IMG/VR virus record: IMGVR_UViG_3300003322_000224
Location: 1 to 35,773 of that record
Reading direction: 5' to 3' (one strand)
Source: a virus
Length of the DNA: 35,773 nt
Shown here piece after piece: positions 139 through 34,137 of this stretch (position 1 is the stretch's first letter; every line of letters begins with the position of its first letter). Made by a program: the position numbers and the translations under genes. Under the pieces are notes generated by a model, which saw only the letters and a program-made list of their open reading frames with translations, was not told the origin of the DNA and searched no databases.

Positions 139-1232
139 CCGACCTTCCGCAACCCCTCACGCCGGCCGACTGCGACCTCCGCGACTTTCCGTACATGCCG
201 CTCGACGTGCTGCGCCTTCGCGATAGCGATCTGGCCGCGCGCACGAGTGGAGAGGAGTTCCGTTGCGCTGTGCTGCTGTGGTGCGCTTCATGGCATCAAG
301 TGCCCGCCGCGTCGCTTCCTGATGACGACGTCAACCTCGCTCAGTACGCCGGATTCGGTCGTGCCATCGATCAGTGGCTGCAGCACAAGGAAGGTGCAAT
401 GCGCGGCTGGGTCAAGTGCTCAGACGGGCGCCTATATCACGCCGTCGTCGCCGAAAAGGCTAATGAAGCGTGGCAGCAAAAGCACGTCAAGGCGCACGAA
501 AAACTGGGCGAGCGTATCCGCAAACGCAACAAAGTGAGGGCGGAAAAAGGCCAATCTCCGTTGGAAATTCCGGATGTGGATAACTGGATTTCCATGGGTC
601 GTCCGGTGGAACGCGATCTTTTTCCGGAGGAATTTGCAGCATCTTCCGCCGGAAATAAGAAGGCTTCCGCCGGAAAAGATATGAGCGGTGTCCGGAACGG
701 TAGCCAAATTCCGCCGGAAAACGCTCTTAAGGGAACAGAACAGAACAGAACGGAACGGAAAGATAAAACCATAGGTTCTAACGACGACGGTGGTACGCCT
801 CCCGCGCGAGACGAAAAATCGCACGCTGCCGCCGTCGAGGTTTCGAAATCGCTGCGCGAATGGGAAAAAGCGCGCGGCAAGTTTCCGCGAAACATCACGC
901 CCAGCCAAGAGCAGGTGATCGAGCTGGCCGCCTTGGAGCCGACGCCCGACGAGCTGCGCAAGGCCTACGAACTGGCCGTCGAGGCACGCGAGAACGCAAG
1001 CGACCCCGGACCGATCAACGCAGCATTCGTGCGCACGAAGCTCGAGCAGCTTCGCCGGCCGCCGCCACCCAAGCGCGAACCGCAACTCTCGCTGCAAGCC
1101 ATGACTGACGCTCAGCGCGACGCGGTTGCTCGCGATCTCGGAATCAGCGGGGCCCGTGCGGGCGAGTCTCGCGATGCGTTCATTGCCCGCATCCAGGCCA
1201 AACGCGCCGAGGCGCAGGGAGCGACAGCATGA
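135..1232 (+). CDS. DUF1376 (YdaU-like) phage replication-region protein
   Basis: A 365-residue protein. The first 110 residues (TPADCDLRDFPYMPLDVLRL, then a WCASWHQVPAASLPDDD-type segment) are the DUF1376 domain found in lambdoid phage replication modules in the place of lambda O or a DnaT/primosome loader. The middle (about 120-220) is charged and low in complexity. The C-terminal half has short helical segments. Nothing catalytic is visible, so a role in origin binding or helicase loading is inferred from position and family. Its own coding sequence carries a phased repeat array (556-719) and an AT-richer purine tract, as the lambda O gene carries the lambda origin. It overlaps the genes before and after by ATGA. 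Confidence 0.85.
   Translation: MTDLPQPLTPADCDLRDFPYMPLDVLRLRDSDLAARTSGEEFRCAVLLWCASWHQVPAASLPDDDVNLAQYAGFGRAIDQWLQHKEGAMRGWVKCSDGRLYHAVVAEKANEAWQQKHVKAHEKLGERIRKRNKVRAEKGQSPLEIPDVDNWISMGRPVERDLFPEEFAASSAGNKKASAGKDMSGVRNGSQIPPENALKGTEQNRTERKDKTIGSNDDGGTPPARDEKSHAAAVEVSKSLREWEKARGKFPRNITPSQEQVIELAALEPTPDELRKAYELAVEARENASDPGPINAAFVRTKLEQLRRPPPPKREPQLSLQAMTDAQRDAVARDLGISGARAGESRDAFIARIQAKRAEAQGATA
556..719 (+). repeat. Iteron array, candidate replication origin
   Basis: Three exact copies of the palindrome TTCCGCCGGAA lie at 644-654, 665-675 and 709-719. Degenerate copies matching TCCGnnGGAA lie at 556-566, 601-611 and 622-632, and a half copy (CCGGAA) ends at 697. Start positions 601, 622, 644, 665, (687) and 709 step by 21-22 bp, two helical turns, so all sites face one side of the helix. 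A 22-bp step is not a multiple of three and the copies fall in different codon phases, so the repeats are kept at DNA level rather than as a protein repeat. The probable binder is the DUF1376 protein encoded here. The origin role is inference. Confidence 0.65.
733..780 (+). repeat. Pentanucleotide purine repeat and AT-richer stretch beside the iterons
   Basis: Six tandem five-base units run from 733 to 762: GAACA three times, GAACG twice, then GAAAG. AT-rich sequence (ATAAAACC...) follows to 780. Over 721-780 only 25 of 60 bases are G or C, clearly below the surrounding sequence. A repetitive, strand-asymmetric, easily melted tract directly next to iterons fits a DNA unwinding element. It is translated as part of the DUF1376 gene. 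Confidence 0.5.
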
Positions 1233-2870: not shown

Positions 2871-3293
2871 ATGGATCTGGCGACGCTTGAGCCAAGGCTG
2901 GAAAATTGGGCGCGCGCGCAGTGGTCTAGCGGCTATGAGCCCGGCCGCGCCGCGTCGGCGGAGGGAATGTGGCGTGGCGGAGGCTGGCGCGAACTGCGAG
3001 CCGCGCCTGATCCCATCGACGCTCGCGACGCCGCCCTCGTCAACGCCGCATGGCAGCGCCTGATGCCGCTTGATCGCGACGTGCTGCGTATGCACTACGT
3101 CTGGCGGGCTCGCTCGTCGTTCATCTGCCGCCGGCTCAAGCTCAAGCAAGGGCACGGATACGAGCACGTGTGGGATTTCGCGCTCTACCACGCGCATCAA
3201 GCGATCGCAGCCATGCTTGACAAAATCGATGACCTTGCGAAACCCATACGCTGTGCCTATAATCGCGACCAGATTACCGAATCCGTCGATTGA
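2871..3293 (+). CDS. Probable Q-like late-gene regulator (antiterminator)
   Basis: 140 residues. The core (about 55-120) has MPLDRDVLRMHYVWRARS followed by SFICRRLKLKQ and a WDFALYHAHQAI helix. This is the sigma-region-4-like or helix-turn-helix arrangement of phage proteins usually annotated as antiterminator Q-like. It is the last early gene before the terminase, the position of Q in lambdoid phages. A strong promoter lies inside its 3' end and is followed at once by terminators, exactly where a Q-type factor would act. The Q assignment rests on position and the promoter/terminator layout as much as on sequence. A transcription activator is the main alternative. Confidence 0.6.
   Translation: MDLATLEPRLENWARAQWSSGYEPGRAASAEGMWRGGGWRELRAAPDPIDARDAALVNAAWQRLMPLDRDVLRMHYVWRARSSFICRRLKLKQGHGYEHVWDFALYHAHQAIAAMLDKIDDLAKPIRCAYNRDQITESVD
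3235..3263 (+). promoter_or_regulatory. Late promoter, sigma70 type (pR'-like)
   Basis: TTGCGA at 3235-3240 (4 of 6 to consensus) is followed, after exactly 17 bases, by a perfect TATAAT at 3258-3263. Transcription would start near 3270, inside the last codons of the Q-like gene, and run into two hairpins before the first late gene. No equally good promoter is apparent elsewhere on this strand in the late operon. Confidence 0.7.
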
Positions 3294-3299
3294 CGAGTG

Positions 3300-3324
3300 A
3301 AGCGACCGCAGTAGGGGTCGCTTT
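3300..3324 (+). terminator. Hairpin with short T-run, first part of a tR'-like terminator
   Basis: AGCGACC at 3301-3307 pairs with GGTCGCT at 3316-3322 across an 8-base loop; one more A-T pair extends the stem. It is followed by a few Ts. The T-run is weak, so it may act as a pause or as part of the leader structure rather than as a full terminator. Confidence 0.5.
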
Positions 3325-3339
3325 CGCCCGAAAATCCCG

Positions 3340-3378
3340 AAGCCCGCCTGGCCCTAAGCCTCGCGGGCTTTTGCTTTT
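3340..3378 (+). terminator. Rho-independent terminator in the late leader (tR'-like)
   Basis: AAGCCCGC at 3340-3347 pairs with GCGGGCTT at 3363-3370, followed by a T-rich tail (TTGCTTTT to 3378). It ends 10 bases before the first late start codon. With the promoter at 3235-3263 it would release a leader RNA of about 100 bases unless RNA polymerase is antiterminated. Confidence 0.75.
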
Positions 3379-3388
3379 GGAGCCCAAG

Positions 3389-3655
3389 ATGGCGAAATTG
3401 AGCACCGCGCAGCGCAAATCGATGCCCGCCAAGGAATTTGCCGGCGGCAAGCCCAAGGGCGATGCGACCGGACGATTTCCGCTGAACGACAAAGCGCACG
3501 TCAAGGCGGCCGAGTCGTACGAGCGCTTCGCCACCCCGGCCGAGAAGAAGAAAATCGACGCGGCGGCGTCCAAGGACTTCCCGAAGGGCAAGAAGGCGAG
3601 CTCCGATGGCAAGAAGGTCGGCGCGCGCCTTGCAGGATACAAGTCGGGGTATTGA
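3389..3655 (+). CDS. Small basic phage protein, DUF6582-like
   Basis: 88 residues from the ATG at 3389, behind a GGAG site. The protein is lysine-rich (MAKLSTAQRKSMPAKEFAGG, then RFPLNDKAHVKAAESY). The F-P-x-x-D-x-x-H-x-x-A-A pattern resembles the DUF6582 group found next to terminases and in phage capsid genes. Function is unknown. The frame is open further upstream, but that would run through the leader terminators. It is the first gene of the late operon. Confidence 0.7.
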   Translation: MAKLSTAQRKSMPAKEFAGGKPKGDATGRFPLNDKAHVKAAESYERFATPAEKKKIDAAASKDFPKGKKASSDGKKVGARLAGYKSGY

Positions 3656-3658
3656 GCA

Positions 3659-4048
3659 ATGGGTGCGCCTTCTACGTTTTCTCAAGCCTTGTTCGACCGG
3701 ATCTGCGAGCAAATGGCCGAGGGAAAGAGCTTGCGCGCGATTTGCAAGGCGAAGGACATGCCGAACCGGCGCACTGTGAGCGACTGGCTCGCGAAGGACG
3801 AAAAGCTGGCCAAGCAATATGCCGCAGCCATTGAGGCGCGCGCGGAGCACTACTTCGACGAGATCATCGATATTGCCGACAGCAAATCGGATCCGCAGAA
3901 GACCCGCGTTCAGATCGACGCCCGCAAATGGGTGCTCGCGCGCATGAATCCGAAGAAGTATGGCGACAAGTTCACGCAGGAACTCACGGGTGCCGAGGGT
4001 GGGCCGCTCGTCGTCAAGATCGTGCGGCATGGGGATGAGGATGCCTGA
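3659..4048 (+). CDS. Terminase small subunit
   Basis: 129 residues. The N-terminal part (about 10-50: FSQALFDRICEQMAEGKSLR, then NRRTVSDWLAKD) is a helix-turn-helix of the type used by small terminase subunits to recognise the packaging site. A helical oligomerisation segment follows (HYFDEIIDIAD), then the typical RVQIDARKWVLARMNPKKYG stretch. It works with the large subunit to start DNA packaging. The large-subunit gene overlaps its 3' end by 8 bases. Confidence 0.85.
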   Translation: MGAPSTFSQALFDRICEQMAEGKSLRAICKAKDMPNRRTVSDWLAKDEKLAKQYAAAIEARAEHYFDEIIDIADSKSDPQKTRVQIDARKWVLARMNPKKYGDKFTQELTGAEGGPLVVKIVRHGDEDA

Positions 4049-23719: not shown

Positions 23720-23902
23720 ATGGAACACAATCACGCCAATCTGCTGTCGATGCTGCCGCCAATCGTGGGCAGCGTCATCGGCCACATCGCCAACGACCTT
23801 ACCGTGTCGAACGTCGCTTCGATTGCATCGATCGCCTATTGCGTGGTCGGCGTATGGGTCATGCTCCGAAGGAATCGAGATGAGAAAAACCGATCCGAAT
23901 GA
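23720..23902 (+). CDS. Probable holin
   Basis: 60 residues. Two hydrophobic stretches, LLSMLPPIVGSVIGHI and ASIASIAYCVVGVWVML, are followed by a charged tail (RRNRDEKNRSE), the layout of a small class II-type holin. It is the first gene of the lysis cassette. It would form the membrane lesion that releases the lysozyme. It overlaps the second membrane protein by 23 bases. The in-frame upstream extension lies within the previous gene and was rejected. Confidence 0.7.
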   Translation: MEHNHANLLSMLPPIVGSVIGHIANDLTVSNVASIASIAYCVVGVWVMLRRNRDEKNRSE

Positions 23903-25923: not shown

Positions 25924-26062
25924 TCAACTGCTGTTTTGCGTTATCGCGCAAGGATTGAGGTGTCCCGCTCCTCGCACCATACTGCAATTCCGCACGACGC
26001 AACTATAGGCCACAAGTCGTGTGTTTACAAGGGGATTCGGCAGATTCCCTGTGCGGACGCTC

Positions 26063-26132
26063 CTACGCAAACCACACAGTAAACCGCATATACTACGCAG
26101 CTTCTACGCAATAACTACGCTGGGAGCTACGC
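26063..26132 (+). repeat. Helically phased CTACGC direct repeats before int
   Basis: CTACGC occurs at 26063-26068, 26093-26098, 26104-26109, 26115-26120 and 26127-26132. The last four start 11, 11 and 12 bp apart, one turn of the helix, so the sites lie on one face. The final copy ends two bases before the int start codon and covers its ribosome binding region. This suits integrase arm-type sites, excisionase sites or a cooperative repressor of int. Confidence 0.65.
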
Positions 26133-26134
26133 AC

Positions 26135-27157
26135 ATGGCATCACTGAGGAAGATGGCGTCTGGCGGATGGCGCGCCGAGGTGTACGTCAAGGGCGTCCGT
26201 GATTCTGCTGTCCGGGATACGAAATCCGAGGCGCTTGCCTGGGCGGCCAAGCGGGAATCGGAGCTGCGCTCGATAGCCAGCGGACAGGGCAGCAAGACGC
26301 ACACGGTCGGCGACGTGCTGGCCGCCTATGCCGATAAGGTCAGCCCGGCCAAGCGCGGCGAGCGCTGGGAGCGTTTGCGGCTCGGCTTGATCGGCAAGAA
26401 GATGATCGACGGGCGTCCGTTTGGCGAGATTCGGCTGGCGGATTTGCGAACGTCTCATATCGCGGCATGGCGCGATGCACGCTCGAGAGAGGTTGCCGGC
26501 GCGTCGGTGTCTCGCGAAATGTCGTTGCTGTCCCATGCGCTCGATGTGGCCCGCAAGGAATGGGGATGGCTGACGACCGACCCTATGAAGGACGTAAAGC
26601 GGCCCTCTGGAGGGCCCGCGCGTGACCGGCTTATCTCCGACAAGGAAATCGAGACGATTACGCTGGCGCTTGGTTATCAGGAGGGCTCGCAGGCCGTCAA
26701 CACGTCGCAGCGCGTCGCCGTTGCGTTCCTGTTTGCCATCGAGACAGCCATGCGATCAAGCGAGATCCTGGGTCTCACGAGCCGCACGGTCGATTTCGAG
26801 AAGCGCGTCGCCAGACTGCCGATGACGAAGAACGGCAGCGCGCGCAATGTCCCGCTGTCGCCGCGGGCGATTGATCTGCTGCGGATGCTGCCGGAGGTGG
26901 ATGAGGGTGCGCCGCTGTTCGGGCTGGGGGACAAGATCCGCGACGCCCTGTTTCGCAAGGCGCGAGATAAGGCGTTTGGCAAGCAGAAACGGCATGAGCG
27001 ATTTACGTTCCATGATGCGCGCCATGAGGCCATCACTCGCCTCGCAAAGAAGATCGATGTGCTCGACCTCGCGCGGATGACCGGGCACACCGATATTCGT
27101 GAACTGTTGACCTATTACAACGCGACGGCGGCAGACATCGCCGCGCGCCTGGGTTAG
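26135..27157 (+). CDS. int: Tyrosine-type phage integrase
   Basis: 340 residues. It has an arm-binding N-terminus (ASLRKMASGGWRAEVYVKG), a core-binding helix domain (about 55-150) and a catalytic domain with R207 (AMRSSEILGL), K232 (MTKNGSARNVPL), H293 and R296 (HDARHE), H318 (GHTD) and the nucleophile Tyr at 327/328 (LLTYYNA). It recombines attP with a host attB and, with Xis, reverses this. The ATG at 26135 was chosen because an upstream frame to 26021 runs through the repeat array and lacks family features. Its stop overlaps the convergent Xis-like gene by four bases. Confidence 0.92.
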   Translation: MASLRKMASGGWRAEVYVKGVRDSAVRDTKSEALAWAAKRESELRSIASGQGSKTHTVGDVLAAYADKVSPAKRGERWERLRLGLIGKKMIDGRPFGEIRLADLRTSHIAAWRDARSREVAGASVSREMSLLSHALDVARKEWGWLTTDPMKDVKRPSGGPARDRLISDKEIETITLALGYQEGSQAVNTSQRVAVAFLFAIETAMRSSEILGLTSRTVDFEKRVARLPMTKNGSARNVPLSPRAIDLLRMLPEVDEGAPLFGLGDKIRDALFRKARDKAFGKQKRHERFTFHDARHEAITRLAKKIDVLDLARMTGHTDIRELLTYYNATAADIAARLG

Positions 27158-28308: not shown

Positions 28309-29291
28309 TTGTTGTCTCCCCGCTCACCGCGCTCGATTTCGGCGCGGTCGATGCGCACACGAACGTATTCGGCCTGCTCGCATTCCTCCTGGCTGTCCTC
28401 GCACCAAGTATGCGAACCGCATTCGCCGACGCCCCGTTGAAGCCAGATTCGACGCGGAGCCCAATCATCCCCCGCCGCCCCGCTAACTGGCGATGCTGCC
28501 GCGCGGGCTTGCCAGCCTGCCCAGGCGTCGCATATGCCGGTGTACTTGTAGCTGTCGCCTCGACGCGAAAGACCGTCGGCGCGCAATTGGAATTCCTCTA
28601 CTGCCCACGCCTCAAACGCTTCGCGCTCGCATACGATCCTGTCGTATGTTGCCTGCGATGCTGCGAGAGTTACGGTTTGACCGTTTCGCAGACAACGTTC
28701 TTTGCACGATAGCGGCGCGCCGCAAACACCGCACCAATGGTTACCGCTATGCAGTTTGGCAACGGTGTCGAGATTAACGCGCTCGTCCTGCGCTGCTGCG
28801 AGTTGCTCGGCTTTCCCATCTGCGAGGCCGCGCGCGTAGCCCTTCTCTTCCTCGCGTTGCAATTCGGTCTGATGGCGCGCCTGCATGGCATATATTGTCC
28901 GATGCAGATCGGTATCTTCCTCGACATGAAGGCGTACCGTTTCCTCCATCGCTCGATACTTTGCCGCGTCGATAGTGCATGCGGGCTCACAAACCTGGGT
29001 GCGCCCGAAATGTTCCTTCGCGGATTCCGCATCGGTGAATGTTTCGTCGCAGTGGAAGCATCGCCACGGCAGCGCTGCTGCGGGCATCGGGGCGGTATGC
29101 TCATTTAACCCAAGCTCAGCAGCCATGTCTGGAACGTGTTGTGGCTCCGCTTGCCCTGCGCTGGCAGCGAAGATGAATCGCTCAGCTAGCGCAAGATCGT
29201 AGAAAAGCGCTACCGGAGGATTCGTGAAATCTCCCTTGCGCACTATGTACCATTGCCCTGGCACATTGGCTTGAATGGCAAACTCACTCAT
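28305..29291 (-). CDS. Hypothetical phage protein with C2HC-type zinc finger
   Basis: 328 residues. The N-terminus (MSEFAIQANVPGQWYIVRKG) is a pattern shared by early phage proteins. At about 77-107 lies CFHCDETFTDAESAKEHF with further Cys residues, a C2H2/C2HC zinc-finger shape. A coiled coil follows (about 110-170), then CGVCGAPLSCKERC at about 188, a second Cys cluster. The segment FEAWAVEEFQ...DAWAGWQAR is a known short phage motif. It looks like a mosaic of small modules. Function is unknown. Confidence 0.6.
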   Translation of the reverse strand: MSEFAIQANVPGQWYIVRKGDFTNPPVALFYDLALAERFIFAASAGQAEPQHVPDMAAELGLNEHTAPMPAAALPWRCFHCDETFTDAESAKEHFGRTQVCEPACTIDAAKYRAMEETVRLHVEEDTDLHRTIYAMQARHQTELQREEEKGYARGLADGKAEQLAAAQDERVNLDTVAKLHSGNHWCGVCGAPLSCKERCLRNGQTVTLAASQATYDRIVCEREAFEAWAVEEFQLRADGLSRRGDSYKYTGICDAWAGWQARAAASPVSGAAGDDWAPRRIWLQRGVGECGSHTWCEDSQEECEQAEYVRVRIDRAEIERGERGDNK

Positions 29292-29802
29292 TCTTGCCCC
29301 CGTTGTGAATGTGCTCGACCTTCATGAAGACGAGCCAATGCGTCAGACCTTTCCGCCCGGACAGGTGGCCGAACAGCGGGCGTTGCGGCGCAAGCTCGAG
29401 CACTTCGGAGATTTTCACTTGCGTCTCGTTCCACTTGAACACCAGGACGCCATGTGCATCGAGCACACGCAGGCATTCGGCAAAGCCGGCGCGAATGTCG
29501 TCGCGCCAGTTCTCGCTCAACTTCCCGTATTTCGCGGCGAGCCAGCTTCTCGGGCCGGCGCGAACAAGGTGCGGCGGATCGAACACGACGAGCTTGAACG
29601 AGCCATCCGGGTACGGCAGATCGCGGAAATCGATCAGGGTGTCGGGCTCGATGCGAAGCGTGCGCATGCCACTTTCGTTTCCGTGCGAGCGGTCCGTTAC
29701 CTCAATGGTTTCGCTTCGAATGTCGCCGAACACGACGGCCGGGTTTTTCCGGTCATCCCAAAACATGCGGCCACCGCAACAGGGGTCGAGGATCAGCTTC
29801 AC
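29284..29802 (-). CDS. Class I SAM-dependent methyltransferase, probably DNA-directed
   Basis: 172 residues. It opens directly with motif I-like LDPCCGGRMFW; an acidic segment (PDTLIDFRDLPYPDGSF) and motif IV-like LVVFDPPHL follow. DPPH takes the place of the DPPY/NPPY of N6-adenine methyltransferases. AECLRVLDAHGVLVFKWNET then gives later strands of the Rossmann fold. No target-recognition domain is present, so it is a minimal enzyme. A phage would use it for self-modification against restriction. The fourth-position His makes the base specificity doubtful. It overlaps the gene before by ATGA and the one after by 8 bases. Confidence 0.75.
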   Translation of the reverse strand: MKLILDPCCGGRMFWDDRKNPAVVFGDIRSETIEVTDRSHGNESGMRTLRIEPDTLIDFRDLPYPDGSFKLVVFDPPHLVRAGPRSWLAAKYGKLSENWRDDIRAGFAECLRVLDAHGVLVFKWNETQVKISEVLELAPQRPLFGHLSGRKGLTHWLVFMKVEHIHNGGKNE

Positions 29803-33186: not shown

Positions 33187-34137
33187 TCAGTAAGGAATGT
33201 CCTGGTCTTCAAGGTCGCCTTGCGGCTGATCTGCCGATTCGAGTTGCTTCTTGCGCGCATCCTTGGAGGCCGTCAGAGCGTCTTCCGAGAGCTTGTCTTT
33301 GCGCGCCCGAGCAATCTTCACGGCACCCAGGTAGTGCTGTTTCAATTCGTCCATGTCGGCCGCGCCAGCGATAGCGGCCTGCCAGTCGGCTAGCTCGTCG
33401 GCGCTCATACCCTCCGGCTCAGGTTCCGCTTTCGGCTCGGCACCACTCTCAAGCCATTCGCGCAACATGACGCCCGTCTGCTCGCTGATCTTGAATGGAT
33501 CTTTTCCCGCGAACAGGCCCGTACGGTCCTTGGAAGGAAGCGCGTAGTTAGATTCGTGTTGCACATCGAGGATCACCGTCAGTTCGTATTCGAATCCATC
33601 GCGCTGCTCGGCCTTCATGCCCAACTTGACGACCTTCTTGCGCCCGTTTTCCTCAACTTGCGCCGTCTCTGTCTTGCTGCGCATCGTTACGATGATGTGC
33701 AGCGACGAGCGCAGGATTGTGTCGATGAACGCGCGGTGCCGCGGCGTCACATCGTTCCATGCAGACCACGAATTTCCCTTGTATCGAGCACGCGCGATTT
33801 CATCGACGAGCTCAAGGCATCCGCCGACACCGGACCATTCGTGCGTCGTGCTGTCGATGATGAGCACGTTGTATCCGGCTTGCTCGGCCTCCTGGACCTT
33901 CTTGATGAATGCCTCCGGCGTGTACGGCGGATTGAGGTCGTCCGCGTCGAATTCGACGTTCCACTTTGGATCGTCGGCGTACAGTTGCGCCGATCCTTTC
34001 TCGGTGTCGAGCAGAGCAATTTTTCCTCCGAGCCCTTTAGCAATCAAAAGGGCACCGATCGTCTTGCCCGCGCCGCTCGGGCCGGTGATACCGAGGCGAA
34101 GTTTCGACTTTTTGCGCACGGCTTTCGTGAACGCCAT
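33187..34137 (-). CDS. Sak4-like recombinase ATPase (AAA_24)
   Basis: 316 residues. Walker A is GPSGAGKT (residues 19-26) and Walker B is VLIIDS (91-96), in a RecA-like core with DTEKGSAQLY (44-53) after the first strand. The layout is that of AAA_24/Sak4 proteins, phage RecA-fold single-strand annealing recombinases. The C-terminal 90 residues are acidic and helical. It would drive homologous recombination of phage DNA with the Gp157-like and 171-residue neighbours and feed branches to the RuvC-like resolvase. The start follows AAGGAGAAAGGAA, a strong site. Confidence 0.85.
   Translation of the reverse strand: MAFTKAVRKKSKLRLGITGPSGAGKTIGALLIAKGLGGKIALLDTEKGSAQLYADDPKWNVEFDADDLNPPYTPEAFIKKVQEAEQAGYNVLIIDSTTHEWSGVGGCLELVDEIARARYKGNSWSAWNDVTPRHRAFIDTILRSSLHIIVTMRSKTETAQVEENGRKKVVKLGMKAEQRDGFEYELTVILDVQHESNYALPSKDRTGLFAGKDPFKISEQTGVMLREWLESGAEPKAEPEPEGMSADELADWQAAIAGAADMDELKQHYLGAVKIARARKDKLSEDALTASKDARKKQLESADQPQGDLEDQDIPY

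Follow-up and report, generated by a model that had tools for sequence, protein, structure and literature searches.

Does a phased repeat array inside a DUF1376 gene constitute the replication origin of the phage that carries it? We address this question for the viral record IMGVR_UViG_3300003322_000224, all 35,773 nucleotides of which were analysed (the window) and in which an array of short dyads lies in the linker-coding part of a DUF1376 gene (Table 1). With a probability of roughly 0.87, judged from sequence comparison, these repeats are a phage replication origin inside the gene of the protein that would recognise them. The fuller explanation, according to which 557-781 is a theta-type origin in its own initiator gene, is more demanding and still very probable.

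Table 1. Features of the DUF1376 locus, in nucleotide positions of the window.
Feature	Position	Strand	Basis
DUF1376 (PF07120) replication initiator gene (predicted), 365 aa	135..1232	+	Pfam and PHROG
Conserved winged-helix domain, codons 16-111 (W49, A51-P57 invariant)	180..467	+	AlphaFold2 model and alignment
Basic helix, proposed iteron reader, codons 112-138 (E126, R127, R129, K130 here)	468..548	+	AlphaFold2 helix and iteron-type association
Iteron TCCGTTGGAA	557..566	+	Core match
Iteron TCCGGTGGAA	602..611	+	Core match
Iteron TCCGGAGGAA	623..632	+	Core match
Iteron TTCCGCCGGAA	644..654	+	Exact copy
Iteron TTCCGCCGGAA	665..675	+	Exact copy
Half-iteron GTGTCCGGAA, right arm GGAA in phase	688..697	+	Core analysis
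Iteron TTCCGCCGGAA	709..719	+	Exact copy
Direct 5-mer array (GAACA)3(GAACG)2GAA = GAACAGAACAGAACAGAACGGAACGGAA, purine-rich strand	733..760	+	Sequence
Predicted DNA unwinding element	742..781	.	Nearest-neighbour stability profile
Helical C-terminal half, codons 227-365, exchangeable among relatives, proposed to recruit helicase	813..1229	+	AlphaFold2 model; no iteron-type association

The encoded protein matches DUF1376 at residues 19-108 (E = 1.9e-9, 38.2 bits versus a gathering threshold of 30.1) and no other Pfam family. In PHROG it matches only phrog_22470 ('replication protein', E = 2.9e-47) and phrog_3992, and the PHROG labels for the family read replication protein or primosomal protein. 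In the AlphaFold2 model, residues 39-102 form a winged helix with the typical order of helices and strands (pLDDT >90 over most of it), and residues 103-137 form one long basic helix. Structure comparison of the N-domain identifies a generic winged helix only: matches to initiator structures are weak (Z about 4), and even the RepA structures that lead them (4pql, 4pt7 and 5kbj at Z 3.9-4.3 over about 85 residues) are tied with unrelated winged helices. In the open literature, where five of 5.39 million papers mention the domain, we found no tested function for DUF1376 (subscription journals were mostly not covered), and a search for the repeat or array sequence returned unrelated matches only. 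Elsewhere the window holds an integrase (26021-27157, + strand), a phrog_1366 protein with weak Sak4-like similarity (33187-34137, - strand) and a DNA methyltransferase open frame that lacks the first part of the profile (29284-29802, - strand). We take the window to be a temperate phage with a methyltransferase that may be cut or split.

First, we consider the repeats themselves. The core TCCGNNGGAA is expected 0.73 times in the whole window; six copies, starting at 557, 602, 623, 645, 666 and 710, lie together with one half-site within 557-719. An isolated TCCGAAGGAA at 23865-23874, far from the array, is the sole further exact match to the core within the window. Exact TTCCGCCGGAA is confined in the window to 644, 665 and 709. 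An initial annotation made from the sequence alone had reported these three copies, and the degenerate copies that it placed at 556, 601 and 622 and the half copy at 687 are recovered as the cores at 557, 602 and 623 and the half-site at 688-697. Its claim that the copies step by 21-22 bp stands for the overall register, which is regular at about 21.9 bp, but not for every interval, because 557 to 602 spans 45 bp and 666 to 710 spans 44 bp. Dyads are thus 21-22 bp or double that apart. The first gap holds just a very weak copy near 580 and the second holds the half-site in its middle, in phase and 22 bp from either neighbour; hence the array is regular with one near-empty register. The copies also fall into different codon phases, as claimed: the cores at 557, 602, 623 and 710 share one phase, those at 645 and 666 a second, and the half-site at 688 the third. 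In 100 synonymous-codon shuffles of the gene no arm had three perfect dyad copies (maximum two), and the excess therefore lies at the DNA level.

The direct array begins 3' of the dyads, and the predicted unwinding element is the least stable 40-bp stretch across codons 68-346 of the gene. Relatives carry 5-6-bp direct arrays as well, mostly of AGGGAC or AGGGAA hexamers, and in 65 of 89 genes, lambda O included, the least stable 40-bp stretch starts between -20 and +60 bp from the direct array. A ACCATAGGTTCTAACGACGACG-like sequence just 3' of the array (768-789 in the window) recurs in L103, L073 and L074; since these phages differ in their iterons, conservation or recombination of the right flank does not depend on iteron type. 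In 32 of 77 genes the (GGGACA)n array creates a canonical G-quadruplex motif on the coding strand (for example in L009 from ORF nucleotide 574 onward), and outside the array region such a motif is found in 2 of 88 genes. A G-quadruplex role of the array was considered and rejected; it cannot be general because the motif is absent from the window and from many relatives.

Comparison with relatives drew on 80 viral loci, 15 genome loci and a phylum-wide survey. The relatives share one layout, namely a DUF1376 winged helix, a basic helix, phased dyads, a 5-6-bp direct array, an AT-rich tract and a C-terminal half, the last of which is exchangeable among them. While the layout is constant, the dyad sequence varies between at least six types: TTCCGnCGGAA in the window, TGTCCCnnGGGACA in most relatives, ATCGCCCCCCGAT in Pseudomonas phage Ostro and an Acinetobacter record, and TGTCCGnCGGACA, GTCCCGnCGGGAC and others. 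The initial annotation proposed to look for TCCGnnGGAA spacing in the DUF1376 genes of related phages; the phased spacing is kept in these relatives, and the dyad sequence is not. A count of perfect same-arm palindromes was too strict for many relatives and gave way to shift correlation, with synonymous shuffles as the null. For 56 representative relatives, 200, 165 and 162 windows matched at shifts of 21, 22 and 23 bp, versus shuffle means of 50, 20 and 19. The phased-repeat statistic reached p <= 0.01 in 51 of 88 DUF1376 genes versus 4 of 52 control ORFs, a set that probably includes some spurious genes. No repeat excess is seen in some distant, short DUF1376 genes (e.g., L120, L127, L129 and L134), and thus not every member of the Pfam family has the origin layout. 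Related phages without phased repeats, which had been named as counting against an origin, were confined to such distant genes and did not occur in the close family.

Furthermore, DUF1376 genes are enriched when 2.9 million viral contigs are scanned blind for pairs of tandem dyads separated by 9-12 bp. The scan for TTCCGnCGGAA returned 47 stretches, 36 of them in ORFs whose protein bears the DUF1376 N-domain; the scan for GTCCCnnGGGAC returned 90, of which 80 were kept, and 73 of these 80 lie in ORFs with the DUF1376 N-domain. Some scan loci are contigs of the earlier relative set, and the scans are thus independent by method and not wholly by data. Phased TTCCGnCGGAA dyads without a DUF1376 N-domain were seen in L162 (reverse complement about 3185-3974), L175, L185 and L171. 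The proteins of the first three are closely alike and by eye resemble other winged-helix initiators, and that of L171 is another candidate. Since the dyads lie inside these non-DUF1376 candidate initiator genes, the iteron may serve other initiator families too.

The genomic surroundings of the family point to replication. A DnaB helicase gene directly follows the DUF1376 gene in phi297 and nine representatives, a primase-helicase adjoins it in Ostro, and the neighbour is a DnaC-like ATPase in the Rac prophage, where that of YdaV follows ydaU, and in pACI-6db8. The C-terminal halves of the phi297, L052/L059 and Rac YdaU proteins match O-like families that have lambda-O-matching N-terminal halves, and residues 173-285 of YdaU directly match the O proteins of Gifsy-1 and further lambdoid phages. 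DUF1376 thus occupies the position of the O-type DNA-binding domain beyond the origin. For the window protein's own C-terminal half PHROG gave no O-like family match, and no recognisable helicase or loader adjoins its gene according to Pfam and PHROG. The gene at 1229-1696, which overlaps the DUF1376 stop codon by 4 bp, encodes 155 aa with a Cys/His-containing N-terminus and matches nothing in Pfam or PHROG. In L055, L043 and L050 a homologue comes immediately after the DUF1376 gene, and in L025 it is located farther downstream. The product of this gene is a candidate helicase-loading partner where no DnaB or DnaC gene is present. No further plasmid rep gene is annotated in two circular records, NZ_CP026419 and NZ_CP034394; these records lend weak support, because both have integrases and look like excised phage genomes. 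A GC-skew turn, which had been suggested as a check, is not visible near the array, and this is uninformative as the window starts only 134 bp upstream of the gene.

In its predicted mode of action the window system is like lambda ori in O and like pSK41 RepA_N; by protein family it is neither. As in lambda gene O, the putative origin lies in the middle of an initiator gene, with phased dyad iterons followed by a low-stability tract. The lambda iterons are annotated at 39034, 39054, 39078 and 39101 (span 39034-39118, steps of 20, 24 and 23 bp), and the least stable stretch comes right after them too. In lambdoid and Stx phage origins, the iterons are followed by an AT tract with an A-rich strand (PMC7466680). 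In contrast to lambda O, the N-terminal domain of the window protein is DUF1376 and not O-type, the iteron sequences differ, the window has no recognisable P or DnaC gene, and in DUF1376 genes the opening tract is formed or preceded by a direct array of GC-containing 5-6-bp units. Lambda O matches phrog_277, 2365, 678 and others, none of which the window protein matches. In pSK41 Rep, the N-terminal winged helix binds four Rep boxes central in the rep gene, the protein segment encoded by the origin is a dispensable linker and the C-terminal domain is DnaD-like; in RepA_N proteins the N-domain and the origin are exchangeable together, as in pPR9 (PMC5703833). Pfam detected no RepA_N domain (PF06970) in the window protein or in 54 aligned members. 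Unlike RepA_N plasmids, DUF1376 phages have Gram-negative hosts, and their iteron type does not follow the winged helix.

A further comparison is offered by the E. coli K-12 Rac prophage, whose YdaU is a DUF1376 protein distantly related to that of the window. Like the window gene, ydaU has phased repeats and an A-rich direct array in its linker, and it is followed by the gene for DnaC-like YdaV. The repeats (TGTTCAAACA / TGTTcAAACA-type, steps of 33 and then 11-13 bp) differ from those of the window in sequence and in their shorter steps. Rac is reported to carry the active origin oriJ (PMC3945230); no literature source was found that places oriJ inside ydaU. The shared layout with changing repeats, the blind scans, the helicase-related neighbours of DnaB and DnaC type, the O-type C-termini and the Rac layout together with oriJ thus support what the initial annotation had proposed, a lambda-ori-like origin embedded in the DUF1376 gene, in a different initiator family.

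How might such an origin work? We infer that DUF1376 protein would bind the phased dyads, probably as dimers, and would form a nucleoprotein array along one face of the DNA. The purine-strand direct array and the low-stability tract next to the dyads would open. The C-terminal half, or the product of the neighbouring gene, would recruit the replicative DnaB helicase, which would be phage-encoded in some relatives and otherwise the host's. Helix 112-138 may read the half-sites, with Asp/Glu126 and Arg129 directing it to CGG and Ala126 and Lys129 to GGG.

This last step concerns the part of the protein that would provide specificity. Within the aligned sequences, the dyad type tracks the helix after the DUF1376 domain and not the domain itself, which is new here. 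In a sliding comparison, similarity in residues 112-138 predicts iteron type with an AUC of 0.97-0.99 (0.987; nearest neighbour 46/47), versus 0.51-0.71 for the winged helix and 0.50-0.59 for the C-terminal half. The association is not circular because residues 112-138 are encoded before the first iteron; comparison windows at residues 150-204, which overlap the coding of the iterons and are circular, were left out. The recognition helix of the winged helix was considered as the specificity determinant and rejected, as it did not follow iteron type. Among 107 distinct helices, residue 129 is Arg in 36 of the 38 with a CCGnCGG core and Lys in 65 of the 69 with a CCCnnGGG core, and residue 126 is Asp/Glu in 37 of the former and Ala/Gly/Ser in 63 of the latter, a two-residue rule derived and counted in one and the same data set. 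Both residues carry about 0.8 bit each on iteron type versus <=0.15 in shuffles. Nearest-neighbour assignment by the whole helix classified just 15 of 27 new sequences of the TTCCG type, as intermediates have other residues in common with the GTCCC type; residues 126 and 129 did separate them. Counted on trees, changes of iteron type number 13 for the winged helix, 13 for the C-terminal half and 4 for the helix, and core type changes 21 times in a larger set versus 31-39 times with shuffled labels. It is fairly likely that the basic helix 112-138 is the specificity determinant that reads the half-sites.

The helix is encoded beside the iterons, and therefore its association with iteron type could reflect hitch-hiking of neighbouring DNA, with the origin reading right and specificity residing in the winged helix. 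In the window about 10 bp separate the end of the helix from the first iteron, and well-supported independent contrasts are few: the winged-helix tree is short and poorly supported, with only two on well-supported branches, both of which agree. We nevertheless regard hitch-hiking as rather unlikely. The C-terminal flank is also near the iterons, yet it scores as low as given above. Moreover, the association is concentrated at residues 119, 123, 126, 129, 131, 133 and 135 and is not even along the helix, and the TGTCCG- and TTCCG-type helices, otherwise unlike, both have Asp/Glu126 and Arg129. L087 is a natural chimera in this respect: it has the winged helix of L016 (0.94 identity), whereas its helix (0.16) and its iterons differ, and DNA similarity between the two drops near nt 300-360.

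Could the dyads be something other than an origin? As phased palindromes can bind repressors or ParB-like proteins, and a ParA-like gene is located about 2.7 kb upstream in phi297, the dyads might be operators for autoregulation or a centromere-like partition site. This is improbable given that the site lies within a coding region, that in most relatives a direct array within the least stable tract comes next, that the gene is annotated as a replication protein with helicase genes adjoining it in relatives, and that Rac ydaU has a like layout in a prophage with a known origin. The repeats might also be recombination joints for the exchange of initiator modules, for modules are swapped at the edges of the stretch, as at the L087 breakpoint, and iteron type changes repeatedly on the winged-helix and C-terminal trees; joints would need a sequence conserved across phages, however, whereas the dyads differ among relatives while their spacing stays, and helical phasing plays no part in homologous joints, which makes this reading very improbable. 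The chance that the repeats are a by-product of a protein-level repeat or low-complexity linker is negligible, even though the linker is predicted to be disordered (AlphaFold2 pLDDT <50 at 183-194 and 200-220), because 10 of the 12 genes that have at least three exact dyads carry them in more than one codon frame, the 22- and 23-bp shifts are not divisible by three, and the signal is lost in synonymous shuffles.

The reading of the array as an origin inside its initiator gene can be extended to a more general proposal, to which we give even odds. DUF1376 would mark a large origin-in-gene family in which a near-invariant winged helix is followed by a helix that recognises the half-site through a simple code (Asp/Glu126 and Arg129 for CGG, Ala/Gly/Ser126 and Lys129 for GGG), helix and iterons would form a recombining specificity cassette, and a conserved (AGGGAC)n-type array would be the element that opens. 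If this is true, helix and iterons move together and origin type would be readable from sequence.

An origin in the DUF1376 gene would give a likely function and a DNA target to a widespread domain of unknown function that is seldom mentioned in the open literature, and it lets origins be predicted in many phages and prophages not yet characterised. It also points to where oriJ of Rac might be sought. Moreover, the family would offer a natural series of matched protein-DNA variants in which to follow the evolution of origin specificity where an origin is embedded in its reader's own gene.
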